From Desulfosporosinus acidiphilus SJ4 (GTDB lineage Bacteria > Bacillota > Desulfitobacteriia > Desulfitobacteriales > Desulfitobacteriaceae), in contig NC_018068.1 in assembly GCF_000255115.2 (NCBI RefSeq), positions 1,240,001 to 1,304,000 on the forward strand: DNA of 64,000 bases. The letters are read 5' to 3'. The translations under genes and the position numbers were made by a program. This document shows, piece after piece, positions 5,792 through 51,017 of this stretch; the first letter of the stretch is position 1; each line of letters opens with the position of its first letter. The notes beneath the pieces are model-generated. The model had not been told where the DNA came from. It did not search any database and worked only from the letters and a program-made list of their open reading frames with translations.

Positions 5792-6964
5792 ATGTCCAAA
5801 AAGTTTCTAAGTATGCTTGCTGTGACAATTCTGTCCTTTACGGTAATTGTTACAGGCTGCGGTACGCAAGGCAGTGCACCTTCAGGTACATCATCCAATT
5901 CATCCGATACACAATCCACGGCCGGCAGCGGAGATATTAAGATTGGGTTACCTTTGCCTATGACCGGGTCAGAGGCAACTTACGGCAAAGATATGGAAAA
6001 TGCTATTAAAATGGCAGTTGACGAAGTGAATGCCAAAGGCGGGATTAACGGCAAAAAACTAGCAACCGTTACCGGTGATGATGCTTGTGATCCGCAGCAA
6101 GCAACAGCTGCTGCTAATAAACTGGTTTCCGAAGGGGTGGTAGCCATTGTCGGAGGATATTGCTCCGGCGCGGTTGTTCCAACCCTGACCATTTACAATG
6201 AAAAGAATCTTCCCTTTATCGTTGAGGCCGCTAACTCATCGAAAATTACAGATCAAAATCCGGGCAATACCTTCCAAATTAATGGTACTGCCGTGCACCA
6301 AACTCAAAAAGCCGTGGAGCTCTTTAAAAAGTTAGGTGCCAAAAACGTTGCTATCGTAGAACAAGGGGATGCTTATTCCTCAGATTTGGCGAAGCAGACC
6401 GAAGCTGCGTGGAAAGCTGCAGGCAATACAGTGGTTTCCCATGATGTGACAACTAAAGGAGAACAAGATTTTTCTTCCTTAGTCACGAGTTTGAAATCTA
6501 AAAATGCCGATTTGGTCTTTTGGACAGCCTATTATGCCGATGGTGCTCTCTTAATTAAACAATTGCGCCAGGGAGGTTACAAAGGTTCCATTGTTGTTGG
6601 TGACGGCAGCAGCGACCCCAAACTAATTCAAATGGCCGGAGCTGCCGGGGAAGGTACTTATGTTCTCTCGCCACCTGTCGCAGAATTCCTCCCGTCTGCC
6701 AAACAATTCGCCGATGCCTATAAAGCTAAATTTAATCAAACCCCGGGAGCTTATGCCCCACTTGCCTATGATGGAATTAACCTCTTGGCAGATGCTATGA
6801 AACGAGCCGGAAGTACCGATGGCAAAGCCGTTATTAAAGCGTTGACTGAGACCAAGGACTTTCCGGGCTTAGCAGGTAAAGTCACCTTCGCTCCCAATAA
6901 GACGTTACAGGAAAGTAACTTTATTGTTCTGCAAATTAAGAACGGACAATTCGTTTTACAATAA
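5792..6964 (+). CDS. livJ: ABC transporter substrate-binding lipoprotein, branched-chain amino acid type
   Basis: Periplasmic-binding-protein fold (type I, LivJ/Leu-binding family) of 390 residues, expected to be anchored outside the membrane as a lipoprotein. The signal peptide ends in the lipobox VTGC with Cys23, followed by a Ser/Gly/Thr-rich linker. The mature part begins KIGLPLPMTGSEATYGKD, the usual start of this family. AATGAGGAGGGGTAAGTAAG supplies the ribosome-binding site. It heads a five-gene importer locus that ends just before the hydroxyproline-degradation genes. The ligand may therefore be proline, hydroxyproline or another compound used by the glycyl-radical enzymes rather than leucine. 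That is an inference from position only. Confidence 0.9.
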   Translation: MSKKFLSMLAVTILSFTVIVTGCGTQGSAPSGTSSNSSDTQSTAGSGDIKIGLPLPMTGSEATYGKDMENAIKMAVDEVNAKGGINGKKLATVTGDDACDPQQATAAANKLVSEGVVAIVGGYCSGAVVPTLTIYNEKNLPFIVEAANSSKITDQNPGNTFQINGTAVHQTQKAVELFKKLGAKNVAIVEQGDAYSSDLAKQTEAAWKAAGNTVVSHDVTTKGEQDFSSLVTSLKSKNADLVFWTAYYADGALLIKQLRQGGYKGSIVVGDGSSDPKLIQMAGAAGEGTYVLSPPVAEFLPSAKQFADAYKAKFNQTPGAYAPLAYDGINLLADAMKRAGSTDGKAVIKALTETKDFPGLAGKVTFAPNKTLQESNFIVLQIKNGQFVLQ

Positions 6965-6975
6965 AATCAACTGAT

Positions 6976-7014
6976 TCTAAGGACGGCGGGGAACTTTTCC
7001 CTGGCGTCCTTAGA
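6976..7014 (+). terminator. Hairpin between livJ and livH
   Basis: TCTAAGGACG (6976-6985) pairs perfectly with CGTCCTTAGA (7005-7014), with further GC pairs inside. There is only a weak U tract after it. Such hairpins between the binding-protein gene and the permease genes usually stabilise the upstream message or terminate partially, giving more binding protein than permease. Confidence 0.6.
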
Positions 7015-7057
7015 CAATCTTTAACAATAGTTCAAAGAGGGTTAAGGGGTGCATGCC

Positions 7058-7978
7058 ATGACAGTCTTTTATATCATTATTCAGCAGCTTGTGAATGGTT
7101 TAATTCTCGGTTCCTTTTATAGCCTTGTCGCTCTCGGCTATTCTATGGTTTACGGCATTATAAAACTCCTCAATTTTGCCCACGGGGATATCTACATGGT
7201 AGGGGCTTTTGTGGGATTTGGGGCTCTTGGTATTTTCGGAGGTGCCTTAGGAATTGGTTGGTTAGGAATTACTGTCGCTTTAGTGATTAGCATGGTTCTG
7301 GTGGGTCTTTTGGGGATTGTAATACATAGGGTTGCCTACCAGCCCCTCTTAAATAAAAATGCCCCCCGCATGTCACTATTGATTACGGCGGTGGGTGTAT
7401 CTTTTACCTTATTTAACGCAGTTATGGTGATGACCAGCGGGGAATACAAAGCTTTCACCACCAGCTTGGGCTACGACGGCATCAGTGTTGGGCCTGTTAA
7501 TATTACCTATACTCAGATAATTATGGTGGTTGCAACGGCTGTTCTGATGCTTTGTTTGTACTGGTTTATTAACCGGACGATGTACGGCAAAGCCATGCGC
7601 GCCATAGCTCTTGACCAGGACGCCTGCCGCCTGATGGGAATCAATGTTACGAAGACCATCAGCTTAACCTTTTTTGTCGGTTCGGCCTTGGCCGCTGCGG
7701 CAGGGGTTATGGCGGGAGTTTACTACGGAAGCATTCAATTTTATATGGGCTTTATCATCGGCTTAAAAGCATTTACCGCAGCAGTTATCGGCGGGATTGG
7801 CAGCATACCGGGAGCTATGCTCGGAGGTCTTATCCTCGGCCTCTTAGAAACAGCCGGAACTCAGCTGCCTTTTGTTGGCTCGGCTTGGAAAGATGTATTT
7901 ACCTTCGGAATTTTAATCCTATTGCTGGTTACAAAACCGACCGGAATTTTGGGTAAAAGCGAGATTGAGAGGATGTAA
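7058..7978 (+). CDS. livH: Branched-chain amino acid-type ABC permease LivH
   Basis: Integral membrane permease of the LivH family, about 306 residues with eight or more hydrophobic segments. The family N-terminus is clear (QQLVNGLILGSFYSLVALGY), followed by MVYGIIKLLNFAHGD and the cytoplasmic ATPase-docking loop with RAIALDQDACRLMGI. The ATG at 7058 has AAGGGG 8 bp upstream; the GTG at 7049 is an alternative three codons earlier. It is followed 3 bp later by livM and should form the heterodimeric membrane channel with it. Confidence 0.92.
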   Translation: MTVFYIIIQQLVNGLILGSFYSLVALGYSMVYGIIKLLNFAHGDIYMVGAFVGFGALGIFGGALGIGWLGITVALVISMVLVGLLGIVIHRVAYQPLLNKNAPRMSLLITAVGVSFTLFNAVMVMTSGEYKAFTTSLGYDGISVGPVNITYTQIIMVVATAVLMLCLYWFINRTMYGKAMRAIALDQDACRLMGINVTKTISLTFFVGSALAAAAGVMAGVYYGSIQFYMGFIIGLKAFTAAVIGGIGSIPGAMLGGLILGLLETAGTQLPFVGSAWKDVFTFGILILLLVTKPTGILGKSEIERM

Positions 7979-7981
7979 CGG

Positions 7982-8938
7982 ATGAGTAATTCTGTTGGTT
8001 TTAAAGATCGTCTAAGTGAAAGGATGAAGGGCAAAAAAACACGTACTTTTTTGCTAACCTTACTGGTCGTGATTGTCACCTTATTGCCCTTGGGTGTCAA
8101 TAACTATGTCGAGGAAGTAATGACCAATACTTTTTTTTATATTATTCTGGCCTTGGGATTAAATATTGTGATTGGTTATGCCGGTCTGGTTGACCTTGGA
8201 TACGCGGCTTTTTTTGCTGTGGGAGCTTATACCACAGGAATTCTCATGAAATATGGCTTGAATTTTTGGCTAACTATACCTATTGCCGTGATTTTCTGTG
8301 TTATCGCCGGAATTATTATTGGAGGACCGACCTTAAGACTGCGCAGCGACTATTTAGCCATTGTAACTCTGGGATTTGGAGAAATCACCCGGATTACTGC
8401 CCGCAACTTAAAGATTACAGGTGGGGCCAGTGGTTTGGTAGGTATTCAACGGCCAAGTATTTTTGGCCATAAGCTCTATCAGATTTCTGACTTTTATTAT
8501 ACATTTTTTGTCTTGGTAATTTTAGCAATTATTGTTTCGCTGCGAATTTATCATTCGCGACTGGGACGTGCTTGGCAATATATTCGCGAGGATGAAGATG
8601 CTGCCGAGGCCATGGGGATCGACCCGGTAAAAACCAAACTTTATGCCTATATGATTGGGGCAGCCTTTGGCGGTGTGGCAGGAGCCTTTTTCGCTGTTAA
8701 AATGACAGCTATTTCGCCGGAGACCTTTGCTTTTACTCAATCGGCGATGATTCTTTTGGCGGTTATCTTAGGAGGCATGGGTAAGATTCCCGGAGCGATT
8801 TTGGGTGCAGTCTTTCTTGTCTTCTTCCCAGAGATATTTCGAGAAATTGGCCAGATGCGGATGCTCCTTTTTGGCATTTTGTTGGTTATCATTATGGTAT
8901 TTCGCCCCCAAGGACTCTGGCCGGAACGAAAAAACTAA
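7982..8938 (+). CDS. livM: Branched-chain amino acid-type ABC permease LivM
   Basis: Second permease of the importer, 318 residues. After a short basic N-terminus it shows the LivM signature NIVIGYAGLVDLGYAAFFAVGAYTTG (given here as landmark around residues 60-85), the LRSDYLAIVTLGFGE segment and the docking loop REDEDAAEAMGIDP. Gene order and 3-bp spacing to livH support co-translation. A structured intergenic repeat (8951-9060) separates it from the two ATPase genes. Confidence 0.92.
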   Translation: MSNSVGFKDRLSERMKGKKTRTFLLTLLVVIVTLLPLGVNNYVEEVMTNTFFYIILALGLNIVIGYAGLVDLGYAAFFAVGAYTTGILMKYGLNFWLTIPIAVIFCVIAGIIIGGPTLRLRSDYLAIVTLGFGEITRITARNLKITGGASGLVGIQRPSIFGHKLYQISDFYYTFFVLVILAIIVSLRIYHSRLGRAWQYIREDEDAAEAMGIDPVKTKLYAYMIGAAFGGVAGAFFAVKMTAISPETFAFTQSAMILLAVILGGMGKIPGAILGAVFLVFFPEIFREIGQMRMLLFGILLVIIMVFRPQGLWPERKN

Positions 8939-8950
8939 TAAAGGCATTTT

Positions 8951-9060
8951 TGTCTGCAGACAATCGAGCGTTTTTAATACTCTCAGAAAGTATAACTTCG
9001 TTGCATAGAATGGCTTATGTGCGAAGACAGTGTTTTCGTCCTCCCGCATAAGTGCAACTA
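8951..9060 (+). repeat. Intergenic hairpin repeat, copy A
   Basis: This gap begins with the 12-bp palindrome TGTCTGCAGACA (8951-8962). It continues with a nested hairpin at 9000-9058: GTTGCA pairs with TGCAAC, CTTATG with CATAAG, and CGAAGAC with GTTTTCG around AGT. The segment from about 8983 to 9060 is related to 53391-53477, with the same order of elements and changes that keep the stems paired. It is intergenic and contains no credible ORF. It belongs to the dispersed family described in the findings. Confidence 0.65.
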
Positions 9061-9123
9061 GGGCCGAGTTTTTTTAGAAAGCTGCTTATATTTTCCGGAA
9101 CTTAGAAAAGAAGGATGAGTAGA

Positions 9124-9894
9124 ATGCCTATCTTAGAAGTGAAAAATTTAACTCTTCGTTTTGGCGGGTTAACAGCTGTCAATAACCTCAGCTTCGATAT
9201 TGAAGAAAATTCGATCATGAGTCTCATCGGACCTAATGGGGCAGGCAAGACGTCAGCCTTTAACTGCCTGACAGGTTTTTATAAAGGCAGTGAAGGGGAT
9301 ATCCTGTTCCAGGGCCGAACTATTTTCCGGCAGAAGCCGTATAAAATTACGAAAATGGGAATGGCGCGAACCTTTCAGAATTTACGCTTATTCAAAGATA
9401 TGACTGTTTTAGAAAATGTTATGTCAGGCATGCACAGCCGTACCTCTGCCGGGGTTCTGGGAGCCGTTTTAAGACTCCCGAGTCAGCGTCAGGAAGAAAA
9501 GAAAATACGGCAGGTGAGCGAAGAGTGCCTGGATTTTGTGGGCATCTTGGATAAGAAGGACCGTCTGGCCCGTAATCTGGCCTACGGTGACCAGCGCCGA
9601 GTGGAATGGGCCAGAGCATTGGCAACACACCCCAAACTTATTTTGCTGGATGAACCGGCCGCCGGGCTTAATCATGATGAAAAGGATCAGTTAGTAGACT
9701 TGATCCATCGTATTCGCAAAGATCTAGGAATCACAGTCTTGTTGATTGAGCATGATATGGGCCTGGTCATGAAAGTCTCGGAAAAAATCGTCGTTATTGA
9801 TTATGGACAAAAAATTGCCGAAGGGACTTCGGAGGAAGTCAAAAATAATCCAAGAGTCATTGAAGCTTACTTGGGTAAGGAGGATGAGGAATGA
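9124..9894 (+). CDS. livG: ABC transporter ATP-binding protein LivG
   Basis: First ATPase of the LIV-type importer, about 256 residues. It has Walker A GPNGAGKTS, the LivG-specific segment MARTFQNLRLFKDMTVLENV, signature LAYGDQRRVEWARAL and Walker B LILLDEPAAGLNHDE, with the H-loop LLIEHD. The ATG at 9124 is preferred because the GAAGGATGAG site is then about 9 bp away; the ATG at 9115 sits almost on top of it. The 3' end overlaps livF by four bases. Confidence 0.92.
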   Translation: MPILEVKNLTLRFGGLTAVNNLSFDIEENSIMSLIGPNGAGKTSAFNCLTGFYKGSEGDILFQGRTIFRQKPYKITKMGMARTFQNLRLFKDMTVLENVMSGMHSRTSAGVLGAVLRLPSQRQEEKKIRQVSEECLDFVGILDKKDRLARNLAYGDQRRVEWARALATHPKLILLDEPAAGLNHDEKDQLVDLIHRIRKDLGITVLLIEHDMGLVMKVSEKIVVIDYGQKIAEGTSEEVKNNPRVIEAYLGKEDEE

Positions 9895-10607
9895 GCGACT
9901 TAGCACTCGTCCTGCAAAATGTGGAAACCTTTTATGGCAAAATTCATGCCCTTAAAGGGGTTAGCTTAGAAGTACCCAAGGGGAAAATCGTGACACTGCT
10001 TGGCTCCAATGGTGCGGGAAAGACCACGACCTTAAAAACGATTTCGGGTCTGATTCAAGCGTCTGCGGGTAAGATTGAGTTTTACGGCCGGGATATTGTT
10101 AAAGAGAAAGCTCACAATATTGTCAGTATGGGATTAATCCATGTCCCTGAAGGACGGCGGATTTTTAAAGACTTAACTGTGAAAGAAAATCTTGAATTAG
10201 GGGGTTTTACCCTCAAAGATGATTCGTTGCGCCGCAATCGAATTGAGCATGTTTTTGAAATGTTTCCCCGCTTGAAAGACCGGCAAAAGCAAATCGGGGG
10301 AACCCTCTCAGGGGGCGAACAGCAAATGCTGGCTATAGGCCGCGCTATGATAACGGACCCGAAACTTCTTTTATTAGACGAGCCCTCCATGGGTCTTGCT
10401 CCTCTGATTGTCCAAGATATTATGAGAATTATTAAGCAGTTGAATGCTGAAGGTACAACAGTTTTGCTGGTGGAGCAAAATGCGAAGATCGCCTTAAAAT
10501 TAGCGGATTACGGTTATGTTCTAGAGACCGGAGAGTTAGTCATGGAAGGGAATAGTGCGGAGCTCAGGAAAGATGAGAGAGTGACAAAGGCTTATCTTGG
10601 CGAATAG
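9891..10607 (+). CDS. livF: ABC transporter ATP-binding protein LivF
   Basis: Second ATPase of the importer, 238 residues, with Walker A GSNGAGKTT, the LivF-typical VPEGRRIFKDLTVKENLELG, signature LSGGEQQMLAIGRAM, Walker B LLLLDEPSMGLAP and LLVEQN. It overlaps livG by ATGA. With livJ, livH, livM and livG it completes a five-component importer. The next gene in the same direction is the first glycyl-radical enzyme. Confidence 0.93.
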   Translation: MSDLALVLQNVETFYGKIHALKGVSLEVPKGKIVTLLGSNGAGKTTTLKTISGLIQASAGKIEFYGRDIVKEKAHNIVSMGLIHVPEGRRIFKDLTVKENLELGGFTLKDDSLRRNRIEHVFEMFPRLKDRQKQIGGTLSGGEQQMLAIGRAMITDPKLLLLDEPSMGLAPLIVQDIMRIIKQLNAEGTTVLLVEQNAKIALKLADYGYVLETGELVMEGNSAELRKDERVTKAYLGE

Positions 10608-10906: not shown

Positions 10907-13300
10907 GTGCCACAAAGAGCCGAGAACAGCTACATGGAGCGCGTGAATCGCCTCAAGCAGAGAGTACTGGGAACTCGTCCCGAGATGGATCTGGAGAATG
11001 CCAGAATTCTTACCGAGGGCTTTCGGGAGACTGAAGGTCAGCCTCTCGTCCTGCGTAAAGCCAAGGCTTTTCGCAGACAGTGTCAGGAAAAGACCGTGAA
11101 GATTTGGGACGATGAGCTGATCGTGGGGTGTTCCGGAAGCAAGATGCGGGGGGGAATTCTATGCGCTGACACCTGCTGGTCGGTGCTCAATGAAGAATTG
11201 GAAACCATTAATGACCGCCGCTATGACCCTTTTTATTTAAAGCCGGAAGACAGCAGAGTTTTTGAAGAAGAGATCCGTCCTTACTGGCAAGGAAAATCCA
11301 CCTATGAGGAGTGGTTAGCCCAGATTCCAGAGGACACCCGTATTCTGAGAGATCATGGGGTCATCTACATTAACCGCAAAGCAGTCCGTGGCTGGGGGGA
11401 AACTACGGCGGGTTATGAATGGCTGATCCACGAAGGTGTCAGCGGTATTCAAAAACGAGTGGAAGAGAGAAAAGCTACCTTAGATATTACCAAACCGGGA
11501 GATTATGAAAAAGATTACTATTTAAGCGCTCTCCTGATTGTCGCTGAAGGGTTAAAGACCTTAGGGAAACGCTATGCCCAGGAAGCAGAAAGACTGGCGG
11601 CATTAGAAGAACATCCGCAGAGGAAAAAGGAACTTCTGGAGATTGCTGCAGTTTGCCGTCAGGTGCCGGCTAATCCGGCACGGACCTTTCGCGAGGCTTT
11701 GCAGTCTTTTTATTTTTATCAAACGGCCATCTTTATGGAACAGAATGCAGCAAGCTATAATCCTGGACGTATGGATCAGTACCTTTGGCCCTACTATCAA
11801 GCCGACCTTGAAGCAGGGCGCCTAACATCCGAGGAGGCCCAGGAACTTTTAGACTGTCTGTGGGTTAAGTTCAGTGAACCCTGTCTCTTTCAGGATGCTG
11901 TTACGGCGGAATTTGCCGCCGGGTATCCCATGTTTCAAAATGTTTGTGTCGGTGGTGTAGACAGTTCCGGCAGGAACGCCGTTAATGATCTTTCCTATTT
12001 AATCCTGCAAGCGACTATGGACGTTCAGCTCTATCAGCCTTCCCTTTCAGTTCGCTATAGCCTGGCCAAGAATCCCAACTCCTTCTTGAGAAAAGTCGTA
12101 GAGCTCATTTCTCTCGGAACAGGATTCCCGGCCTTCCATAACGATGATATAGGGATTAGGATGCTCTTAAATAAAGGAATTCCCCTGAAAGAAGCCTTTA
12201 ATTGGAATCCCTGCGGTTGTGTTGAGACGAATTTGGAGGGACGTCTGCGTCAATACACTGCTCTGGCGGATATTAATCTGGGGAGTATCGCGGAGTTCGC
12301 TCTTCTGGACGGAAGAAACAGGAAAAGCGGTGATTATATCTCCGAGCGAACAGGAAACCCCCTGAATTTTAAGACTTTTGCTGAGTTTCTGACTGCGATA
12401 AAGAAGCAGATTGATTATGCCACCCGGGCCGTGGTGAAAGGGAGTCATGTGATTGATGAAATCGGTATGCATCGTCCGGTTCCGGCTCTTTCCTTGACCT
12501 TTAAAGAATGTATCGAGCAGGCTAAAGATTATGCCTGGGGCGGAGCTAAATATAATGTGGGTAATGGAATTATTTTGATAGGGGTTGCCGATTTAATCAA
12601 CAGTTTAGCTGCTGTGAGACATATTGTATATGAAACGAAACAAGCGACTATGGAACAGCTTCTTAAAGCTCTTGACTGTGACTTTGCAGGATATGATGAT
12701 ATCCGCAAGCTTTGCTTAGACTCACCTAAGTACGGCAACGATGATCCTCTGGTTGACGATATCGCGGGAGAAATGTTTACCTATATTGCCGATGAAATTG
12801 AGAAATACAGCAGTAAATTCGGACGCATGACACCGGGTATTCTCCCTGTGTCCGGCAATACTCCATTTGGTTTGGAAGTGGGTGCACTTCCCTCAGGCCG
12901 CCGGGCTTGGAAACCTCTGGCGGACGGGGTCAGTCCCAGCGGAGGAACAGACTTCAACGGTCCGGGATCGGTTTTGAAGTCTGTGGCTAATATTCCCCAC
13001 GACCGGTTTGTTCAGGGAACTTTGCTGAATATGAAAGTTGAGCCGGAGCTATTATCTACAGAAAACGGCATGATTCAAATGATGGCTCTGCTTAAAAGCA
13101 TGTGCAGTCTGGGAGTCTTCCATGTCCAATTCAATGTCATTGACCAGGAAAAATTAGTGCAGGCACAGAAAAATCCCGAAGAATACCGGGGCCTGCTCGT
13201 TCGGGTTGCCGGTTATACGGCCTATTTTGTGGAACTTGGCAAAGATGTTCAAGACGAGATTATTGGGCGTACCGTACAGCAGGGAATTTCGGTGGGATAA
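10907..13300 (+). CDS. Glycyl-radical enzyme of unassigned substrate
   Basis: Anaerobic radical enzyme of the pyruvate formate-lyase superfamily, about 797 residues from the GTG at 10907 (GAGCGGGGGTG upstream); GTG 10868, GTG 10901 and ATG 10934 are alternatives. The thiyl-radical cysteine and the catalytic base lie in NPCGCVETNLEGR (Cys438, Glu440). The glycyl-radical loop is LLVRVAGYTAYF (Gly769). The Cys-X-Glu pair is shared by dehydratases, C-N lyases and aryl-acetate decarboxylases, not by pyruvate formate-lyase. Residues that mark HypD in the neighbouring enzyme are absent, so it is not a duplicate. I also do not see the decarboxylase histidine 33 residues after the cysteine, nor a small HpdC-like subunit gene. 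Context (LIV importer, HypD, proline genes) suggests an amino acid or betaine substrate, perhaps a hydroxyproline C-N lyase, but this is a guess. Confidence 0.85.
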   Translation: MPQRAENSYMERVNRLKQRVLGTRPEMDLENARILTEGFRETEGQPLVLRKAKAFRRQCQEKTVKIWDDELIVGCSGSKMRGGILCADTCWSVLNEELETINDRRYDPFYLKPEDSRVFEEEIRPYWQGKSTYEEWLAQIPEDTRILRDHGVIYINRKAVRGWGETTAGYEWLIHEGVSGIQKRVEERKATLDITKPGDYEKDYYLSALLIVAEGLKTLGKRYAQEAERLAALEEHPQRKKELLEIAAVCRQVPANPARTFREALQSFYFYQTAIFMEQNAASYNPGRMDQYLWPYYQADLEAGRLTSEEAQELLDCLWVKFSEPCLFQDAVTAEFAAGYPMFQNVCVGGVDSSGRNAVNDLSYLILQATMDVQLYQPSLSVRYSLAKNPNSFLRKVVELISLGTGFPAFHNDDIGIRMLLNKGIPLKEAFNWNPCGCVETNLEGRLRQYTALADINLGSIAEFALLDGRNRKSGDYISERTGNPLNFKTFAEFLTAIKKQIDYATRAVVKGSHVIDEIGMHRPVPALSLTFKECIEQAKDYAWGGAKYNVGNGIILIGVADLINSLAAVRHIVYETKQATMEQLLKALDCDFAGYDDIRKLCLDSPKYGNDDPLVDDIAGEMFTYIADEIEKYSSKFGRMTPGILPVSGNTPFGLEVGALPSGRRAWKPLADGVSPSGGTDFNGPGSVLKSVANIPHDRFVQGTLLNMKVEPELLSTENGMIQMMALLKSMCSLGVFHVQFNVIDQEKLVQAQKNPEEYRGLLVRVAGYTAYFVELGKDVQDEIIGRTVQQGISVG

Positions 13301-13364
13301 ATGTTACAAGGGTAAAGATTATCGGGGAAAAGATTCCGAGGCTAAAGTTTATGGGGTGAAGGTT

Positions 13365-14426
13365 ATGACGGAATTAGAAAAGACTAAAATGCCATCCCAG
13401 AGGTCTCTTGGAGATACAGCAGGTGATGCCGAAGGTTCTGTCTTAGGTCGCGCTGAATCTTCAATTAGAACATCGATTAACACATCTGAGGAATTAATGG
13501 GATTAGTGCTCAGAATCGAGCGGACATCAATCCACGATGGGCAGGGGCTGCGAACAGTTATTTTCCTCAAAGGCTGTCCGCTTCGCTGTCAGTGGTGTTC
13601 CACACCTGAATCTCAGAGACATGAACCGGAAAGAGGGTACGTAACTGATCGCTGCAATGGCTGCGGTACATGTGTGAACATATGTCAGCAAGGTGCCCTT
13701 GCCATAGCTAAGCAAGAGGGCAAGGTCATCATCAATTCCTCAAAATGCCGGGTATGTTTCGTTTGTGCTGAGAAATGTCCGCAGAATGCCATAAAAAAAT
13801 ATGGACGTTTAATGTCCGCGACAGAAACAGTCCGGGAAATCTCCAAGGATGAGATTTTCTTTTTTTATTCCGGCGGCGGTGTTACTATTAGTGGAGGGGA
13901 GCCTCTGGCCCAGTCAGAGTTTGTCTCAGAAATCCTGAGAAGGTGCCGGGGACAGGGAATTCATACGGCTATGGAGAGCAGTCTTTACGCCCCTTTTGAG
14001 AGTGTCTTGAAGGTTTTGCCCTGGCTGAATGTCTTATACGTTGATCTCAAACACATGAATGAAGAATTACATAAACAATGGGCAGGAAGAGATAATTCTC
14101 TGATCCTCGCTAACCTGAGAAATGTTGATGATTCAGATACCCCGCTGGATATTATTGTGCGCATCCCCTTAATTTCGGGAGTGAACGATTCAGATGCGAA
14201 TCTCATGGCTGCTGCGGAATTTTGCCAATCCCTGCGCAAACTGCAAGAGATCGAGCTCTTGCCTTATCACCGGCTTGGTCTTGAAACCTATAGAAATCTT
14301 CAGAGGGATTACCCTTTAAAAGACTTGCTGCCGCCGGTGGGAGAGAGAATCTTGGAGCGGGCTGGTTTTCTTGCCCGGCAGAATCCCAAAGTGCCGGTCC
14401 GTGTCGGCGGAGAGTTGGTAAATTGA
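13365..14426 (+). CDS. Glycyl-radical enzyme activating protein (radical SAM)
   Basis: Radical SAM activase that installs the glycyl radical on its partner. The SAM-cluster motif is in FLKGCPLRCQWCSTPES (CxxxCxxC). A ferredoxin-like insert with two [4Fe-4S] motifs follows (CNGCGTCVNIC and CRVCFVCAEKC), as in activases of non-PFL glycyl-radical enzymes. SGGGVTISGGEPLAQ is the SAM-binding GGE region. The ATG at 13365 (GGGGTGAAGG upstream) gives 353 residues with a Ser/Glu-rich N-terminal extension of about 45; the ATG at 13497 after GAGGAA would give 309, matching the second activase. It directly follows the unassigned enzyme and probably activates it. Confidence 0.9.
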   Translation: MTELEKTKMPSQRSLGDTAGDAEGSVLGRAESSIRTSINTSEELMGLVLRIERTSIHDGQGLRTVIFLKGCPLRCQWCSTPESQRHEPERGYVTDRCNGCGTCVNICQQGALAIAKQEGKVIINSSKCRVCFVCAEKCPQNAIKKYGRLMSATETVREISKDEIFFFYSGGGVTISGGEPLAQSEFVSEILRRCRGQGIHTAMESSLYAPFESVLKVLPWLNVLYVDLKHMNEELHKQWAGRDNSLILANLRNVDDSDTPLDIIVRIPLISGVNDSDANLMAAAEFCQSLRKLQEIELLPYHRLGLETYRNLQRDYPLKDLLPPVGERILERAGFLARQNPKVPVRVGGELVN

Positions 14427-15349
14427 CAGACGGAGTGTTGAATGTGACGCAAGGCAAGATCATTAATATTATGAAATATTCCATCCACGATGGACCGGGT
14501 ATTCGAACCGCTGTTTTCTTTAAGGGCTGTCCCCTTAATTGTCTTTGGTGTCATAATCCGGAAAGTCAGAAATATGACCAAGAGTTGTTCTATTGGCCGG
14601 ATCGCTGTATCGGCTGCGGCCAATGCTTGGCGAGTTGTGTTAACGATGCGATTAGACTGGCAGAAGACCAATTAATATTTTACCGCACTCAGTGTCAGGC
14701 TTGCGGAGACTGCTGTAAGGTCTGCCATGCCGGGGCGCGAGATTTGGCAGCTAAAACGATGTCGGTGAGCCAAGTGATGGCTGAGATTGAAAAAGACCTC
14801 GTATTTTATGACGAATCGGGAGGCGGGGTAACCTTTTCAGGCGGAGAAGCCTTGATGCAGCCGGTCTTCCTTACAGAACTGCTGAAGGAGTGTCAAAAGA
14901 AGGAGATACACACGGCTGTTGAGACCTGCGGCTATGCTAAGCCGGAAATTCTCCATACCATCAGCCCCTTCGTTAATCTCTTCTTATACGATCTCAAACT
15001 TATGGATTCCCAGCGACACCAACACTACACCGGGGTGCCCAATGAACTTATCCTGGACAACCTGCGCTGGCTGACAGAGCACCATCCCAAGGTTCATGTC
15101 CGCGTACCTATCATTCCCGGTTGTAATGATGATAAGGAAAATCTTCACCAACTGGGAGAATTCGTTGCCTCCCTGAAAAGAATTCAAGAACTCCATTTGC
15201 TGCCCTATCACCGGGCGGGAGTGGATAAATACAAACGGTTGGGTCTGGAGTATCAGCTGCCGGAGATCCAAGTTCCTGAGAATGAACAGATGGAGAAGAT
15301 CAAGATGGAATTGGAACGATATGGGTTAAAGGTTAAAATCGGCGGTTAA
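14423..15349 (+). CDS. Glycyl-radical enzyme activating protein (radical SAM), HypD partner
   Basis: Second radical SAM activase, 308 residues, starting at a TTG that overlaps the stop of the first activase by four bases. It has IHDGPGIRTAVFFKGCPLNC with CxxxCxxC, two ferredoxin clusters (CIGCGQCLASC, CQACGDCCKVC), SGGGVTFSGGEALMQ and a C-terminal LLPYHRAGVDKY region. It ends 26 bp before the HypD-like gene, the usual arrangement for hypD and its activase. The two activases are similar but clearly diverged, so each probably serves one of the two flanking glycyl-radical enzymes. Confidence 0.92.
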   Translation: MTDGVLNVTQGKIINIMKYSIHDGPGIRTAVFFKGCPLNCLWCHNPESQKYDQELFYWPDRCIGCGQCLASCVNDAIRLAEDQLIFYRTQCQACGDCCKVCHAGARDLAAKTMSVSQVMAEIEKDLVFYDESGGGVTFSGGEALMQPVFLTELLKECQKKEIHTAVETCGYAKPEILHTISPFVNLFLYDLKLMDSQRHQHYTGVPNELILDNLRWLTEHHPKVHVRVPIIPGCNDDKENLHQLGEFVASLKRIQELHLLPYHRAGVDKYKRLGLEYQLPEIQVPENEQMEKIKMELERYGLKVKIGG

Positions 15350-15375: not shown

Positions 15376-17733
15376 ATGAATGAACGAGTAACCATGCTGA
15401 GGCAGCAGAGTCTAGAAACCGAAGCCTATATTTCAGCGGAAAGAGCAGAATTAATGACGGAATTTTATCGTCAAGCCGGTAATACCTCCGTGCCTGTCCG
15501 AAGAGCCTTAGCTTTTAAGTACATGCTGGAACGCAAAGCGATCTGCATCAATCCGGGAGAATTGATCGTAGGAGAACGAGGACCTGCTCCCAAGGCGACG
15601 TATACCTATCCTGAGCTTTGCTGTCATTCCCTTGAGGATTTAGATATTCTCGACTCGCGGCCCAAGATTTCCTTTAAGGTAAGTCAGGAAGTTCGTGAGG
15701 TTTACAAACAGCAAATCATTCCTTACTGGCAGGGAAATTCTATGCGCGACCTGATTTTTCAGGAGATGTCCGAGGAATGGAAAGCGGCTTATGATGCGGG
15801 AATATTCACAGAATTTATGGAGCAGAGAGCACCGGGCCATACCGTTCTTGATGATAAAATCTATCGCTTAGGCTTTTTGGATTTTATAGAGAAAATTGAG
15901 GACCAATTAGCAAATCTCGACTATTTGAATGATCCTGAAGCCTATCAGAAGCAGGAAGAGCTTAAGGCCATGAGAATTTGCGCCGAGGGAATCATAACAT
16001 TCGCTAAGCGGTATGCCCAAAAAGCTAAAGAAATTGCTCAAGGTGAGACAGACCCGCTGCGCAAGTCAGAACTGGAAACCATTGCCGAAGTATGTTCCTA
16101 TATACCGGCTCATGCTCCGAGAAATTTCTGGGAGGCCCTGCAAGCCTATTGGTTTGTCCATCTCGGTGTTATTCTGGAACTTAATACCTGGGATGCCTTT
16201 AACCCCGGGCGATTGGATCAGCACCTGTATCCTTTTTATAAGAAGGCTTTAGCCGAAGGAACTTTGACTGAAGAAAAGGCCAAGGAACTTTTACAGTGTT
16301 TTTGGGTTAAGTTTAACAACCAGCCGGCACCGCCTAAAGTGGGGGTAACCGCGGCAGAAAGCGGGACTTATACGGATTTCGCCAATATCAACAGCGGCGG
16401 ACTTAAAGCGGACGGGTCGGATGGGGTCAATGACGTCACATACCTCGTGTTAGATGTTATCGATGAAATGCGCCTTTTGCAGCCTAGTTCCAATATTCAA
16501 TTGAGCAAAAAAAATCCTGATCGTTTTATCAGGCGAGCGGCTCGCATTATCCGCAAGGGTTGGGGCCAGCCTTCCGTTTTTAATGCCGACTCTGTGGTTG
16601 AAGAGCTGCTGCGCCAGGGCAAATCCATTGAGGATGCCCGTCAGGGCGGTACTAGCGGCTGCGTTGAGACAGGTGCCTTTGGCAAAGAAAGTTATATCCT
16701 CACAGGATATTTCAACTTACCGAAGATCTTTGAACTGACCTTACACAATGGGATTGATCCGAAGACCGGTGGGCGATTGGGCCTGGAAACCGGAGATCCC
16801 GGAGGATTTAGTTCCTATGAGGAACTCTTCGAAGCCTTTAAAAAGCAGCTTCACTATTTCCTTGACATTAAGGTTAAAGGGAGCAATGTTATCGAGCGCC
16901 TCTATGCAGCCTATATGCCTTCTCCCTTCCTGTCCATGCTCATCGACGATTGTATTCTTAAAGCTAAGGATTACAATGACGGGGGTGCCCGTTACAATAC
17001 GAACTATATTCAAGGTGTCGGCCTGGGCAGCCTCACAGATACCTTGTCAGGCATTCGCTATCATGTTTATGATCAAAAAGATCTGACCATGGAACAACTG
17101 CTTAAGGCTTTGGAGCAAAACTTCGAGGGACATGAAGGAGTTCGCCAGCTGCTGCTGAACAAAACGCCCCATTTTGGCAATGATGATGACTACGCCGATG
17201 AAATCATGGTCGATATTTTTAACGCCTACTATAATGAAGTCAATGGACGGCCCACGATGAAAGGCGGGGTCTATCGCATTAATATGCTGCCCACCACCTG
17301 CCACGTCTATTTCGGCTCGGTCATCGGCGCTACGGCTGACGGCCGCAGGGCTTGGGAACCGCTTTCCGAGGGGATTTCTCCCGTTCAAGGATCTGATCGC
17401 TTAGGGCCGACGGCAGTTATCAAGTCCGCTTCCAAAATGGATCATGCCCGCACCGGGGGGACTTTGCTGAATCTGAAGTTTACTCCCCAAGTGGTGGAGG
17501 GAGATGAAGGGCTTGAGAAATTAGTCCAGCTGGTTCGCTCCTACTTCAAGTTAAGCGGCCACCACATTCAGTTCAATGTTGTCAGCGCCAAGACCCTGCG
17601 GGCGGCTCAGAAGGAACCGGAAAAGTATCGTGATCTCATTGTCCGCGTTGCCGGATACAGCGATTACTTCTGTGACCTCAGTGAAGCTTTGCAGGAAGAG
17701 ATTATTACTCGGACAGAGCATACAGCTTTTTAA
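15376..17733 (+). CDS. hypD: trans-4-hydroxy-L-proline dehydratase (glycyl-radical enzyme HypD)
   Basis: Dehydrates trans-4-hydroxy-L-proline to (S)-1-pyrroline-5-carboxylate with a thiyl radical. The protein is 785 residues. The thiyl cysteine and base are Cys429 and Glu431 in TSGCVETGAFGKE; the radical glycine is Gly760 in RVAGYSDYF. I recall the active-site residues of Clostridioides difficile HypD as His160, Asp278, Ser334, Asp339, Phe340, Cys434, Glu436, Tyr450, Thr645 and Gly765. Here His155, Asp273, Ser329, Asp334, Phe335, Cys429, Glu431, Tyr445, Thr640 and Gly760 occupy the same places with a constant offset of five, which is strong support. The upstream GAGGGAGGAGAGG is an excellent ribosome-binding site. 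The P5C product would feed the P5C dehydrogenase encoded at 23600-25231. Confidence 0.92.
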   Translation: MNERVTMLRQQSLETEAYISAERAELMTEFYRQAGNTSVPVRRALAFKYMLERKAICINPGELIVGERGPAPKATYTYPELCCHSLEDLDILDSRPKISFKVSQEVREVYKQQIIPYWQGNSMRDLIFQEMSEEWKAAYDAGIFTEFMEQRAPGHTVLDDKIYRLGFLDFIEKIEDQLANLDYLNDPEAYQKQEELKAMRICAEGIITFAKRYAQKAKEIAQGETDPLRKSELETIAEVCSYIPAHAPRNFWEALQAYWFVHLGVILELNTWDAFNPGRLDQHLYPFYKKALAEGTLTEEKAKELLQCFWVKFNNQPAPPKVGVTAAESGTYTDFANINSGGLKADGSDGVNDVTYLVLDVIDEMRLLQPSSNIQLSKKNPDRFIRRAARIIRKGWGQPSVFNADSVVEELLRQGKSIEDARQGGTSGCVETGAFGKESYILTGYFNLPKIFELTLHNGIDPKTGGRLGLETGDPGGFSSYEELFEAFKKQLHYFLDIKVKGSNVIERLYAAYMPSPFLSMLIDDCILKAKDYNDGGARYNTNYIQGVGLGSLTDTLSGIRYHVYDQKDLTMEQLLKALEQNFEGHEGVRQLLLNKTPHFGNDDDYADEIMVDIFNAYYNEVNGRPTMKGGVYRINMLPTTCHVYFGSVIGATADGRRAWEPLSEGISPVQGSDRLGPTAVIKSASKMDHARTGGTLLNLKFTPQVVEGDEGLEKLVQLVRSYFKLSGHHIQFNVVSAKTLRAAQKEPEKYRDLIVRVAGYSDYFCDLSEALQEEIITRTEHTAF

Positions 17734-18451: not shown

Positions 18452-19471
18452 CTAACTTCCAATGATCCTAAATCCTTCGGGCAGCGGGTCCTTGGGATCA
18501 AGCACTAAATGATTAAATCCGGTAATTTGCGCAGTTCCGGATACCTCAGTAAGAACGGCAGGGTAGTCCCCAATCTTTGTTTCTTCTACAAATTTGCCTG
18601 CAAAGGGAGTATCTATAATGCTGTAATTGATCAGGGTATCTTCTTTTTTCATTTCACCTCTATGATAATGGAGAGCAACTCTCCCGCCTGTTCCGGTCCC
18701 GGTAGGAGAACGATCAACTTGCCCCTCGGCGAAGATACAAACATTTCGGGTCGTAAGTATACTTCCTTCTCGTACAGGCTTTTCGTAGAAAATCGTTCCA
18801 TAGAGCCAATTGACACCGGATGAGGGATGATTAAATTCCATAACTGACATTACTTTGTGCTTAATTTCCATACCAGTCGAGACCAGTTTTTCAGTGTTTT
18901 CTGGGGTAATTGTCAAGTTTATTTGTTTTGTATCCAAATATACATAAAAGGCGCCGCAATAAACAACATCGCCCGTAACTTCCCCGATACCCTCGACTTT
19001 GACAGTGATGTTCTCTCGATAGACAAAACAGGGGACGTTTTGAAATCTAACTCGTTCAACTTCCCCATTTTTGACATCGGCAAAGGCTTTAATTCTTCCG
19101 GCCGGCGAGTCTATTTTAACGACTGTTTCACCTTCCTGAGCGACAATCATTCCGGTTTCAATAGCAACTTTAGTTACCCCAATAATGCCGTGTCCGCACA
19201 TGGAGCTTAATCCCTCGTTATGAGTAAATAAGACGCCAAAATCTCCATCTTCTGTTACCGCAGGAAGGAGGATACAGCCGTACATTCCGCTGTGTCCCCG
19301 GGGTTCCAACATGATCATCTTGCGCAAGTGATCATAGTTTTCCAGCATATATTGTCTTTTTTCTAGCATCGTTTTGCCTGGAATAGGCGGTAAGCCGGAG
19401 GTAACAATTCTAAGAGGTTCTCCCGCTGTATGGGCGTCTATGCAATGTATGGAGTGCTTAAAATTCATCAA
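18452..19471 (-). CDS. trans-3-hydroxy-L-proline dehydratase (proline racemase superfamily)
   Basis: Member of the proline racemase / 4-hydroxyproline epimerase fold, 339 residues. The first catalytic position is Cys92 in SSMCGHGIIG. The second, which is Cys in racemases and epimerases (DRSPCGTG), is Thr257 here (DRSPTGTGTGGR); the DNA codon is ACC on the minus strand. The Cys/Thr pair is the hallmark of trans-3-hydroxy-L-proline dehydratases such as human L3HYPDH, which form 1-pyrroline-2-carboxylate. I therefore call a dehydratase rather than a racemase. The product normally needs an ornithine-cyclodeaminase-family reductase to become L-proline, and a truncated gene of that family lies just upstream on the same strand. 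It runs opposite to the surrounding catabolic genes. Confidence 0.85.
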   Translation of the reverse strand: MMNFKHSIHCIDAHTAGEPLRIVTSGLPPIPGKTMLEKRQYMLENYDHLRKMIMLEPRGHSGMYGCILLPAVTEDGDFGVLFTHNEGLSSMCGHGIIGVTKVAIETGMIVAQEGETVVKIDSPAGRIKAFADVKNGEVERVRFQNVPCFVYRENITVKVEGIGEVTGDVVYCGAFYVYLDTKQINLTITPENTEKLVSTGMEIKHKVMSVMEFNHPSSGVNWLYGTIFYEKPVREGSILTTRNVCIFAEGQVDRSPTGTGTGGRVALHYHRGEMKKEDTLINYSIIDTPFAGKFVEETKIGDYPAVLTEVSGTAQITGFNHLVLDPKDPLPEGFRIIGS

Positions 19472-19558: not shown

Positions 19559-19765
19559 TCAAATATGTCTTGAATTTTCCCGAATTTCTCCTGAAAACTT
19601 ATCTTTGCTGATTCTTTTGCGAGATAAAGGAATAATAAAATCTCCTGCTTCCGCCAGGACAGCTTCTACAGAGTCAAAGAAAATCTTATCGGCATCTCTT
19701 ACGGCTTCTACTGGATCACGCATTGTAAAAACCAGTTGAATTTCTTTTTTGGTAAGAAGTATCAT
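19559..19765 (-). pseudogene. Truncated ornithine cyclodeaminase / ketimine reductase-family gene
   Basis: The 68-residue product begins MILLTKKEIQLVFTMRDPVE and continues AVRDADKIFFDSVEA and then IIPLSRKRISKDKFSG. This looks like the N-terminus of ornithine cyclodeaminase/mu-crystallin family enzymes (usually about 310-340 residues, with the pattern L-S/T-x-x-D/E-V-x-x-x-x-x-M-x-D-A-I/V-E). The Rossmann domain is absent, and no continuation is found in the 87 bp before the next gene in any frame I checked. In hydroxyproline loci this family supplies 1-pyrroline-2-carboxylate reductase, the exact step needed after the neighbouring dehydratase. I read it as a decayed reductase. A genuine small protein is the alternative. 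Confidence 0.6.
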
Positions 19766-19975: not shown

Positions 19976-20018
19976 CCAGAAAATTTAATTCCAAATGTTT
20001 CAGTTGACAGTATGCAAA

Positions 20019-20036
20019 TTGGCACGAAAATTGCTA
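20019..20036 (+). promoter_or_regulatory. Sigma-54 (-24/-12) promoter of the amino-acid dehydrogenase operon
   Basis: TTGGCACGAAAATTGCTA contains the invariant GG and GC exactly 10 bp apart and matches the sigma-54 consensus (TTGGCAC-N4/5-TTGC) at every core position. Transcription would begin near 20045, ahead of the GTG at 20091. The activator encoded at 26912-28657 is the closest candidate regulator. Confidence 0.9.
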
Positions 20037-20090
20037 TTTATATTTAAGTTCAATCAAGTTCTTGGATTACAACCAGGGGGAGTGACGTCT

Positions 20091-20396
20091 GTGCGAATTA
20101 ATGATCATCCTATTTTGGACTTCCAGCGAGGAGAAGAGATCACCTTTTCCTTCGATGGTCAGGAAGTTAAAGGTTATGAAGGAGAGACCATCGCTGCCGC
20201 CCTTCATGCTGCGGGGGTTAGGGTTTTAGGCCATAGTCCGGAAAAGCATAGGCCGAGAGGACTCTTTTGTGCTATCGGCAATTGTTCATCCTGTCTCATG
20301 ATCGTCGATGGAGAACCCAATGTCAGAATTTGTGTAGAAAAGGTTAAGCAAGGCATGCAGGTGCAAACGCAGCAAGGAAAGGGGTGCCTGCGTTGA
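20091..20396 (+). CDS. [2Fe-2S] subunit of amino-acid dehydrogenase (HcnA-like)
   Basis: Small plant-type [2Fe-2S] protein of 101 residues, like HcnA, the LhpF-type subunit of hydroxyproline dehydrogenases and the small subunits of opine oxidases. Cluster ligands are in LFCAIGNCSSCLMIVDG with a further Cys in VRICVEKV. The GTG at 20091 follows GGGGGAGTGACG and lies after the sigma-54 promoter; upstream in-frame codons precede the transcription start. It is the first of five overlapping genes for a flavin/iron-sulfur dehydrogenase. Confidence 0.85.
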   Translation: MRINDHPILDFQRGEEITFSFDGQEVKGYEGETIAAALHAAGVRVLGHSPEKHRPRGLFCAIGNCSSCLMIVDGEPNVRICVEKVKQGMQVQTQQGKGCLR

Positions 20397-21487
20397 AAGA
20401 GATAGAAGTTCTCATTATTGGCGGCGGACCGGCTGGGCTATGCGCCGCAGCAGCGGCGGCCGAATTGGGTGCCGGTGTTCTTTTGCTGGAGAGGGATGAC
20501 AAACTCGGCGGACAATTAGTCAAACAAACCCATAAGTTTTTCGGTTCTAAAAAACAGTACGCCGGTGAGCGGGGCTACCAGATCGGAAACGTTCTGATTG
20601 AGCAGTGTTCCGCTAAGCCGAAGGTTGAAGTATGGTCGGAAGCTACCGCTCTGGGAATTTATGATGATGGTGTTGTCACGGCAGAAAAAGACGGCCAACA
20701 TATAAAAATTAAACCCAAAAAAATTATCGTGTCAACGGGTGCTTCTGAGAAGATGATAGCCTTCCCCAATAACGACATGCCCGGTATTTACGGAGCCGGG
20801 GCAGTTCAAACTCTCATGAATGTCCATGGCATTGTTCCAGGGCAACGTGTACTTATGGTTGGTGCCGGAAATATAGGACTTATTGTTTCTTATCAATTGC
20901 TTCAGGCAGGAGTTGACGTGGCAGCGATCATTGAGGCTGCACCAGCGATTGGTGGATATTTGGTCCACGCTTCAAAGATCCGGCGTGCCGGTGTTCCTAT
21001 CCTGACCTCTTATACCATTAAAGAAGCTTACGGCAAGGAAAGTGTTGAGGGCGCAATCATTTGCCAATTGGACGAACATTGGCAGGAGATTCCCGGGAGC
21101 GAACAGGACTTGACGGTCGATGTTATTTGTCTGGCAGTCGGATTAAGTCCCTTAACAGAACTTTGCTTTCAGGCAGACTGCCAGATGAAATACGTTCCGG
21201 AACTTTCCGGACACGTGCCCCTAAGAAACGAATATTTGGAAACCACCCGTCCTGGGCTCTATGTAGCTGGGGATGTCAGCGGGGTTGAAGAGGCCAGTTC
21301 TGCTATGGTCGAAGGACGCTTGGCCGGAATAAGTGCTGCTTATAGTTTAGGTTACGGCCAGGATACGGCAGCGAAACTTCAAGAAGATGCCTTGGCAGAG
21401 TTAAGTGAATTGCGGGCGGGACCTGCCGGGCAAAAGACCTTGCAAGGACTTAAAAAACTGACGGAAAAGGGGGGAGCGGGATGCTGA
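20393..21487 (+). CDS. FAD/NAD(P)-binding subunit of amino-acid dehydrogenase (HcnB-like)
   Basis: Pyridine nucleotide-disulfide oxidoreductase-fold subunit of about 364 residues. The N-terminal FAD motif is VLIIGGGPAGLCAAAAAAE; a second dinucleotide motif is VLMVGAGNIGLIVSYQLLQ near residue 155; the C-terminal FAD motif is GLYVAGDVSG. TTG at 20393 after AGGAAAGGGG or GTG at 20384 can start it; both overlap the [2Fe-2S] gene. In HcnB and LhpE this chain carries a C-terminal Bfd-like iron-sulfur domain. Here that domain is a separate gene (21974-22261), as in archaeal PDH1-type proline dehydrogenases. Confidence 0.85.
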   Translation: MKEIEVLIIGGGPAGLCAAAAAAELGAGVLLLERDDKLGGQLVKQTHKFFGSKKQYAGERGYQIGNVLIEQCSAKPKVEVWSEATALGIYDDGVVTAEKDGQHIKIKPKKIIVSTGASEKMIAFPNNDMPGIYGAGAVQTLMNVHGIVPGQRVLMVGAGNIGLIVSYQLLQAGVDVAAIIEAAPAIGGYLVHASKIRRAGVPILTSYTIKEAYGKESVEGAIICQLDEHWQEIPGSEQDLTVDVICLAVGLSPLTELCFQADCQMKYVPELSGHVPLRNEYLETTRPGLYVAGDVSGVEEASSAMVEGRLAGISAAYSLGYGQDTAAKLQEDALAELSELRAGPAGQKTLQGLKKLTEKGGAGC

Positions 21488-21984
21488 ACAAAACTGGGAT
21501 TCCCACCGCTGAGGATGTAAAAACTGTTACCCCCACTGAGGAACGGCTGAAGAAAGGTCCTGTTGCTATTATCGAATGTTTCCAAAAGATACCCTGCAAT
21601 CCTTGTACGGAAGCCTGCAAGCAAGGTGCTATTCAGCCGATGGAGGAAATCAATGACTTGCCCAGGATGGACTTTGATAAATGCAATGGCTGCGGTGTTT
21701 GCCTCAGTCGTTGTCCGGGATTGGCAATTTTTATAGTTGATGGTTCCTATAGCGCGGAAGAAGCCATTGTCAGAGTTCCTTATGAATATCTGCCGGTTCC
21801 GCAAGTTGAGGAAGAAGTGGTTGGGGTTGATCGTGCTGGTAAAGAACTGGGTACCTTTAAGGTGAAAAAGGTCCAGTCCGGCGGCCCGAAAAATAAAACT
21901 TACACTGTGTGGCTGGCTGTACCCCAGGAACTGGCCATGGAAGTGCGCGGTATTCGCTTGGGAGGGGTTAGACATGCTGGATAA
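21481..21984 (+). CDS. 4Fe-4S ferredoxin subunit
   Basis: Iron-sulfur protein of 167 residues. The first cluster motif is CNPCTEACKQG, the second CNGCGVCLSRCPG. The C-terminal half (about 80 residues, including VDRAGKELGTFKV) is not a standard ferredoxin and may bind the larger subunits. Its start overlaps the FAD gene by seven bases and its stop overlaps the Bfd-like gene, so all five subunits are translationally linked. It probably passes electrons from the flavin subunits to a cellular carrier. Confidence 0.82.
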   Translation: MLNKTGIPTAEDVKTVTPTEERLKKGPVAIIECFQKIPCNPCTEACKQGAIQPMEEINDLPRMDFDKCNGCGVCLSRCPGLAIFIVDGSYSAEEAIVRVPYEYLPVPQVEEEVVGVDRAGKELGTFKVKKVQSGGPKNKTYTVWLAVPQELAMEVRGIRLGGVRHAG

Positions 21985-22261
21985 AGAGACCATCGTCTGT
22001 CGTTGTGAAGATATTACTTTAGATGAAATCCAAGCCTTGATAAAGCAAGGCTACCGGACCATTGACGAAATTAAACGGGTTCTTCGCGCCGGGATGGGAC
22101 CTTGTCAGGGACGGACCTGCCGGATGTTAATTGCCCAAGAACTGTCAAAGGCCTATGGGATTCCTGTTTCCGAAGTCCTGATGCCTACCTTCCGGCCGAC
22201 AGTCAAACCGGTGAAACTAGGAACCTATGCGGGGGGTGAAGCAGTTGCAAAAAACAGCTAA
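21974..22261 (+). CDS. Bfd-like [2Fe-2S] subunit
   Basis: Protein of 95 residues with the BFD-type [2Fe-2S] pattern: CRCEDI near residue 10 and GMGPCQGRTC near residue 45, plus the helical linkers ITLDEIQALIKQGY and IDEIKRVLRAGMG. The same domain forms the C-terminus of HcnB, opine oxidase subunit A and LhpE. Here it stands alone. The long tail after residue 65 (MPTFRPTVKPVKLG) is the usual linker of this family. Confidence 0.85.
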   Translation: MLDKETIVCRCEDITLDEIQALIKQGYRTIDEIKRVLRAGMGPCQGRTCRMLIAQELSKAYGIPVSEVLMPTFRPTVKPVKLGTYAGGEAVAKNS

Positions 22262-23393: not shown

Positions 23394-23599
23394 TGATTCA
23401 GAATTTATTAAGGCTCTCAATGAACTTGGTCTGCAAAACTGTACATCAGGAGTCTCGGTGGGGGGCTTTAGCCTCTGCGGAGAAACCGAAGGAGTAACCC
23501 CACTTGTAGAAGTGCAAATCTAGATGTAGAAGAGGGAATCTAGAAGGGATAAGTTTTGTAATCGTTACTTTATGGATTCAAAAAATGGGAGGAATTATA
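23394..23599 (+). other. Structured intergenic segment
   Basis: Between the dehydrogenase and P5C dehydrogenase genes, GTGGGG at 23458 pairs with CCCCAC at 23498. Inside that outer stem GGCTTTAGCC and TCTGCGGA form small hairpins, giving a multi-branched fold of about 46 nt. No gene is seen. It could be a processing or partial termination site. Confidence 0.4.
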
Positions 23600-48012: not shown

Positions 48013-48201
48013 TGTGGGCGAAGTTACCTTCCTTTGAGGTCTATAGGGTTCGGGATGGTTTTTTTAGCGGGGTGAAGGAGATTTTCCTTCATCCCTATTA
48101 GTCATTTAGATCCTTTAGATCATTGACACCCCGATTTTGGCATGTTAAACTTAAAAAAATTTGCAATTTGCAGACAATTAAAGCAGGAATAGGTGTTTTT
48201 G

Positions 48202-48960: not shown

Positions 48961-48980
48961 GCTAATTGGGGGTTCATGAG

Positions 48981-50945: not shown

Positions 50946-51017
50946 CACAGCTTGGGAATTGCGGTATGATAGTACCATACCATGGTTAATTATTTTAAGA
51001 GGAAGGTGTAAGCGACT

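Follow-up and report, generated by a model that had tools for sequence, protein, structure and literature searches.

A glycyl-radical enzyme beside HypD in Desulfosporosinus acidiphilus SJ4 is probably a dehydratase of the N-methyl-cis-4-hydroxy-L-proline dehydratase group

Genes at the locus

The window analysed here, the whole stretch of 64,000 nucleotides from Desulfosporosinus acidiphilus SJ4 (contig NC_018068.1, positions 1,240,001 to 1,304,000), carries a glycyl-radical enzyme (GRE), which we call GRE2, between a LIV-type importer and the gene for HypD (Table 1). The GRE2 frame is open from ATG 10814, the start given in the ORF list, to the stop at 13300, and its start is likely the GTG at 10907, judging by a GGGGGTG stretch just 5' of it. 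The enzyme is intact: it scores 668 bits against the PFL-like and 102 bits against the Gly_radical Pfam profile, it has both the CVE and RVAGY loops, and the segments GYPMFQNVCVGG and GFPAFHNDD were verified in its sequence. The original prediction of a complete GRE with Cys-Val-Glu and Gly loops and its own activase was thus borne out by the ORFs, Pfam and TIGR02494. The subfamily model TIGR01774 provides the sole NCBIfam cut-off that GRE2 reaches, with no equivalog passed, which explains why the enzyme had looked unassignable.

Table 1 Features of the GRE2 locus, in window coordinates
Feature	Position	Strand	Basis
LIV-type ABC importer, complete, upstream of GRE2	5792-10607	+	ORFs; candidate substrate importer
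LivJ	5792-6964	+	profile matches
LivH	7049-7978	+	named by sequence
LivM	7982-8938	+	named by sequence
LivG	9115-9894	+	named by sequence
LivF	9891-10607	+	named by sequence
GRE2, glycyl-radical enzyme, 797 aa	10907-13300	+	ORF list, Pfam/NCBIfam profiles, phmmer, AlphaFold model
GRE2 Cys438	12218-12220	+	Cys-Val-Glu loop
GRE2 Glu440	12224-12226	+	Cys-Val-Glu loop
GRE2 radical Gly769	13211-13213	+	RVAGY loop
Radical-SAM activase of GRE2	13365-14426 (ORF 13206-14426; in-frame ATGs 13365, 13497)	+	TIGR02494, 320 bits
Second activase, HypD-activase type	14423-15349	+	NF043069, 407 bits, slightly below cut-off 425
HypD	15376-17733	+	NCBIfam NF043068, 1385 bits, cut-off 1100
Proline-racemase-family protein, Cys/Thr at two catalytic positions	18452-19471	-	NF045511 best profile, 398 bits, below cut-off 540
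Sarcosine-oxidase-like/amino-acid dehydrogenase set, five genes	19995-20396, 20384-21487, 21481-21984, 21974-22261, 22227-23393	+	soxA/soxB-family matches far below cut-off
L-glutamate gamma-semialdehyde (P5C) dehydrogenase	23585-25231	+	TIGR01236, 788 bits, cut-off 613.6

The spacing of the genes suggests that GRE2, the two activases and HypD form one operon. Further downstream, the Cys/Thr pair of the racemase-family protein is what we take to be a trans-3-hydroxy-L-proline dehydratase-like signature, and this protein, HypD and GRE2 would together form a hydroxyproline-isomer island. The P5C dehydrogenase would use P5C from HypD, and from GRE2 as well if the substrate of the latter is unmethylated. 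In the sarcosine-oxidase-like set, the protein encoded at 21481-21984 has no profile match at 1e-8. ProC does not adjoin GRE2 in the window. For Clostridioides difficile, PMC12899673 describes proC as a neighbour of hypD. As originally predicted, no thiolase was seen downstream of the gene: read by eye, the ORF list contains none at 10-26 kb of the window, and a lone thiolase-like ORF lies at 33928-35079. The predicted lack of microcompartment genes nearby held as well, the BMC-profile matches of the genome sitting about 380 kb away beside CutC, and a microcompartment-linked GRE2 was rejected on this ground.

Three further observations concern the surroundings. A remnant of the ornithine-cyclodeaminase family lies on the minus strand at 19577-19726 and is 61% identical to the stretch 230-280 of the protein at one locus of a GRE2 relative (L031; L numbers denote such loci). 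L031, L032 and L036 each have a gene of this family, 330-340 aa long, next to the one for the racemase-family protein. The racemase-family proteins of L056 and L065 have Cys/Cys, not Cys/Thr. Finally, positions 48193-56691 of the window encode a regulator, two corrinoid-type proteins, a methyltetrahydrofolate methyltransferase-type protein, a URO-D/MtaA-type protein, an MFS transporter and a RACE-type reactivator, which we read as a putative methyl-transfer system in a genome without an MttB match, the corrinoid, MFS and RACE names coming from sequence reading.

Closest solved enzymes and active-site residues

A phmmer search of the PDB with GRE2 returned 8id1 (1259 bits) and 8iof (956 bits), followed by CutC (about 600 bits, with one 1150-residue chain at 693), glycerol dehydratase (531), HypD (501) and HplG (361). 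GRE2 is 67% identical to 8id1 over its whole length and 52% identical to 8iof. Its AlphaFold model (pLDDT 83.3, pTM 0.87, 45-row alignment) superposes on 8id1 at 1.7 A over 753 residues with 64% identity (VIA-align, Z 48.5), compared with Z scores of 46.6 for 8iof, 42.4 for HypD and 40.3 for HplG, and Foldseek again placed 8id1 and 8iof as the top two. According to the PDB entry titles, from which the substrate names of 8id1, 8iof and HplG (7vua) are taken, 8id1 is the N-methyl-cis-4-hydroxy-L-proline dehydratase of Intestinibacter bartlettii and 8iof the N-methyl-cis-4-hydroxy-D-proline dehydratase of Clostridium sp. FS41. These functions were hidden by the chain labels of the PDB sequence file, where the two best chains appear as 'Formate C-acetyltransferase' and 'Benzylsuccinate synthase alpha subunit'. 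Both structures presumably come from the work of Jiang et al., ACS Catal. 2024, 14:4407-4422. A literature text search for the codes 8ID1, 8IOF, 8ID0 and 8ID7 gave no match.

Several named families were rejected on their NCBIfam scores: HypD (NF043068, 624.4 bits against a cut-off of 1100), CutC choline lyase (TIGR04394, 700.6 against 1050), and HpsG/HpfG, indoleacetate or hydroxyphenylacetate decarboxylase (630/1000, 496/1000, 408/1100 and 365/1150 bits). HplG is by its PDB title a C-N cleaving GRE acting on hydroxyproline, a precedent for ring opening by C-N cleavage in GRE2. With an identity of only 28% to 7vua, on which GRE2 was rejected as an HplG, the Z score and bit score given above, and no thiolase pair like OrtAB, the partner of HplG, seen near GRE2 in the ORF list as read by eye, we regard this reaction as very improbable.

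We mapped the HypD contacts onto GRE2 by alignment, using the HypD study (eLife 2020 e51420), which names 13 active-site positions, reports variants of His160, Asp278 and Asp339 as inactive, and describes Ser334 as touching the Hyp carboxylate. The claim that GRE2 has none of the HypD pocket residues proved nearly right. At 8 of the 13 positions the residue is replaced (His160 by Glu165, Asp278 by Ala282, Asp339 by Met342, Lys326 by Gln329, Phe152 by Arg157, Tyr450 by Asp455, Thr645 by Val648 and Ser334 by Ala337) and Trp277 falls in an alignment gap, but Cys434, Glu436, Arg156 (R161) and Phe340 (F343) are kept. GRE2 and HypD have these four positions in common, and both would be GRE dehydratases acting on a hydroxyproline ring, yet they are 34% identical and the three residues whose variants inactivate HypD are absent from GRE2. 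The replacements are identical in 8id1, except that of Ser334 by Ala337.

At 81 active-site-loop positions, chosen by us from the published contacts of HypD and the contacts of CutC rather than from the coordinates of 8id1, GRE2 is identical to 8id1 at 77, to 8iof at 57 and to the window HypD at 30. From GRE2 to 8id1, the differences include A337S, A452S, L453Y and I456Y, together with I516N and I556D. Arg161, Glu165, Cys438 and Glu440 are shared with 8iof, but A282S, F343T, D455E and other positions differ, and GRE2 lacks the 8iof-type pocket (Ser282, Thr343, Glu455), having Ala, Phe and Asp there. In the GRE2 model, segments 328-342 and 648-678, which hold pocket residues, have a pLDDT below 50.

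A scan of genome_contigs gave 208 GRE2 relatives, of which the best 80 were kept as loci. Among these best 80 of 208, many of which are metagenome bins, the record titles place the family in gut genera and also in Desulfosporosinus, Ca. Formimonas, Syntrophomonadaceae, Desulfobulbaceae/Desulfocapsaceae and Synergistota. In a 94-row tree, built by a quick method with SH-aLRT support only, GRE2 groups with 8id1 and not with HypD-type GREs. 8id1 belongs to a clade of 15 rows (support 100) that arises within the family, and 8iof sits on a long basal branch, its placement being unsure. Because GRE2 falls outside the 15-row clade, among other Desulfosporosinus rows, we claim membership for the wider 8id1 group only. 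A comparison of the 15 clade rows with the other 64 shows 19 columns in which the two sets have different majority residues, each at 80% or more, and in eight of these columns (337, 395, 453, 516, 556, 617, 686 and 780) both majorities reach 93%. Two of the eight, 337 (A to S) and 453 (L to Y), belong to pocket loops, and two more, I516N and I556D, markedly alter the type of residue. Position 337 does not switch cleanly: L114 and four of the other 64 rows carry Ser there as well.

The A337S and L453Y differences could alter isomer fit, and GRE2 might act on another N-methylated isomer or a betaine, such as N-methyl-trans-4-hydroxy-L-proline. We consider this unlikely: in identity and pocket, GRE2 is nearer 8id1 (L-cis) than 8iof (D-cis), and nothing found here pointed directly to a trans or quaternary substrate.

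Proposed reaction

The analysis establishes the family of GRE2, the fold predicted for it, its conserved loops, its pocket residues as aligned and its gene neighbours, and from these we deduce the substrate, the way it is oriented and the product. GRE2 is probably (at roughly 0.72) a glycyl-radical dehydratase and a member of the N-methyl-cis-4-hydroxy-L-proline dehydratase group, that of 8id1; the family-level assignment, to a dehydratase of a cis-4-hydroxy-L-proline-type ring, is strong. The original prediction had described a GRE with no assignable substrate and a candidate for undescribed chemistry. Neither description stands, the nearest solved relatives being the named dehydratases 8id1 and 8iof, and with the identity to 8id1 and the match at 77 of the 81 positions GRE2 largely falls within a characterised subgroup, pocket included. 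The guess made there, that the substrate is a hydroxyproline isomer or another cyclic amino acid, finds support in 8id1 and 8iof and in part of the gene neighbourhoods.

The most likely reaction of GRE2 is the dehydration of a cis-4-hydroxy-L-proline-type substrate, yielding (N-methyl-)pyrroline-5-carboxylate. If GRE2 works as HypD does, the activase encoded next to it would generate a radical on Gly769, from which it would move to Cys438. Cys438 would then abstract a hydrogen atom at C5 of the hydroxyproline ring, which has the (2S,4S) configuration. Loss of the 4-hydroxyl as water, aided by Glu440 and Glu165, and return of the radical would leave Delta1-pyrroline-5-carboxylate or its N-methyl iminium. 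Since HypD Tyr450, Thr645 and Ser334 are replaced and Phe152 has become Arg157, we infer that the carboxylate would be gripped by Arg157, Lys158 and Arg161, with the ring nitrogen near Asp455 and Glu165. A pyrroline-carboxylate product would also explain the ProC-like genes near some GRE2 relatives.

We keep N-methyl-cis-4-hydroxy-L-proline as the presumed default substrate, since we found no other substrate named for a close relative, with free cis-4-hydroxy-L-proline as the main alternative. The former 'unknown GRE' now has a two-member list of testable substrates, and an annotation transferred from 8id1 could mislead for relatives without methyltransferase genes.

Gene neighbourhoods and the choice of substrate

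Neighbours were counted at 79 loci, 65 outside and 14 inside the 8id1 clade, drawn from the best 80 of 208; L076 was dropped, its GRE being missed by the ORF picker, and L111, L112 and L113, whose contigs equal those of L089, L098 and L074 in length and were treated as identical to them, were not counted anew. The 65 outside loci do not form a clade. Labels came from phmmer with seed proteins at E 1e-5, by which divergent family members may be missed, and absences of neighbours are weak, a number of the contigs being short. Within 8 kb, an activase is present at 59/65 loci outside and 12/14 inside the clade. With Fisher p values uncorrected for shared descent, the corresponding counts are 0/65 and 3/14 for MttB (p 0.005), 11/65 and 0/14 for the racemase family (p 0.20), 14/65 and 0/14 for another GRE (p 0.06), 13/65 and 0/14 for LivH-like proteins (p 0.11), and 5/65 and 4/14 for ProC-like proteins, which are enriched inside (p 0.05). 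The 14 other GREs comprise seven HypD-like enzymes (63-94% identical to the window HypD), one partial enzyme at a contig end (L082) and six of a different kind in Synergistota.

At 51 of the 65 outside loci, short contigs included, no other GRE lies within 8 kb, as might be expected if GRE2 served an unrelated substrate and had reached the hydroxyproline island by chance. The subfamily-only NCBIfam match and the GRE2-bearing Desulfosporosinus genomes G012 (67% complete), G020 and G028, where HypD was not detected at a strict threshold, point the same way. We nevertheless find such a coincidence quite improbable, given the identity to a named dehydratase and the linkage of GRE2 to HypD-like genes, in differing gene orders, in both Desulfosporosinus and Syntrophomonadaceae-type loci.

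The lack of nearby MttB outside the 8id1 clade and of any MttB in this genome, along with HypD, racemase and LIV neighbours at some loci, makes the free amino acid a live alternative. It is possible, though we put it forward tentatively, that GRE2 and many relatives outside the clade convert unmethylated cis-4-hydroxy-L-proline to (S)-P5C. The context is one of plain hydroxyproline, with HypD in the same gene run as GRE2, and the other-GRE and racemase-family counts differ across the clade border in the expected direction. The MttB profile found no match in the D. acidiphilus SJ4 genome and none in six of nine other genomes: four of the six tested outside the clade (L066, L063, L078 and L070), and L097 and L103 inside it. 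A canonical ProC (279 bits, cut-off 197) adjoins GRE2 in Terrisporobacter mayombei (L066), whose genome has three ProC. If this reading were true, the operon might dehydrate both C4 epimers of L-hydroxyproline, trans by HypD and cis by GRE2, into one P5C pool for the dehydrogenase at 23585-25231. Sulfate reducers and syntrophs would then handle both epimers with one operon, and a dehydratase of free cis-4-hydroxy-L-proline would be the stock from which the N-methyl enzyme 8id1 later branched off.

Against the free substrate stands a pocket nearly identical to that of 8id1. In addition, L097 inside the clade and L071 outside it share a TRAP transporter, a Gfo/Idh protein, GntR and one ProC subtype, and the substrate therefore need not change at the clade border; L073 has the L071-type module, but without a labelled Gfo/Idh. 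At the genome level, MttB does not track the border either, since it is absent in L097 and L103 inside and present in L040 (67 matches) and L049 (one match) outside; L094, inside, has 15. A clean substrate border at the clade border was therefore not upheld. The Ser337 rows outside the clade count against the free-substrate reading too. The ProC residue corresponding to Thr238 of human PYCR1, which we take to be the one touching the imine nitrogen, was rejected as a test of methylated versus free product, as it gave no clean split between methyl and non-methyl cassettes. N-methyl compounds could also be imported directly, without MttB. Among the literature matches listed, no title concerns a GRE acting on free cis-4-hydroxy-L-proline. 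N-methyl-cis-4-hydroxy-L-proline remains our default.

MttB as an obligate partner of N-methyl enzymes was rejected on two close relatives of 8iof: L115 (92% identical) has ProC, activase, GRE, MttB and an MFS transporter within 9 kb, but L116 (90% identical) has no MttB in 20 kb. Nor is there any sign of GRE2 travelling with betaine demethylation in the genus Desulfosporosinus. Among 21 genomes, that of strain SJ4 included, MttB genes number 0-5 in the seven with GRE2 and 0-26 in the 14 without (Mann-Whitney p 0.018). GRE2 is found in 10 of 29 genomes of the genus, with HypD within about 10 kb in five of the ten (G000, G002, G008, G023 and G025). One further genome, G013, has seven GRE matches that are 28-34% identical to GRE2, the level at which benzyl/alkylsuccinate-synthase-type enzymes would be expected.

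The different GRE of the Synergistota loci (L072, L075, L077, L083, L087 and L090) lies directly upstream of GRE2. In the two loci tested, L077 and L087, it reached no NCBIfam equivalog cut-off, and the best solved match of the L077 protein is glycerol dehydratase, at 651 bits. Where undescribed chemistry is concerned, this second enzyme may be a more promising candidate than GRE2.
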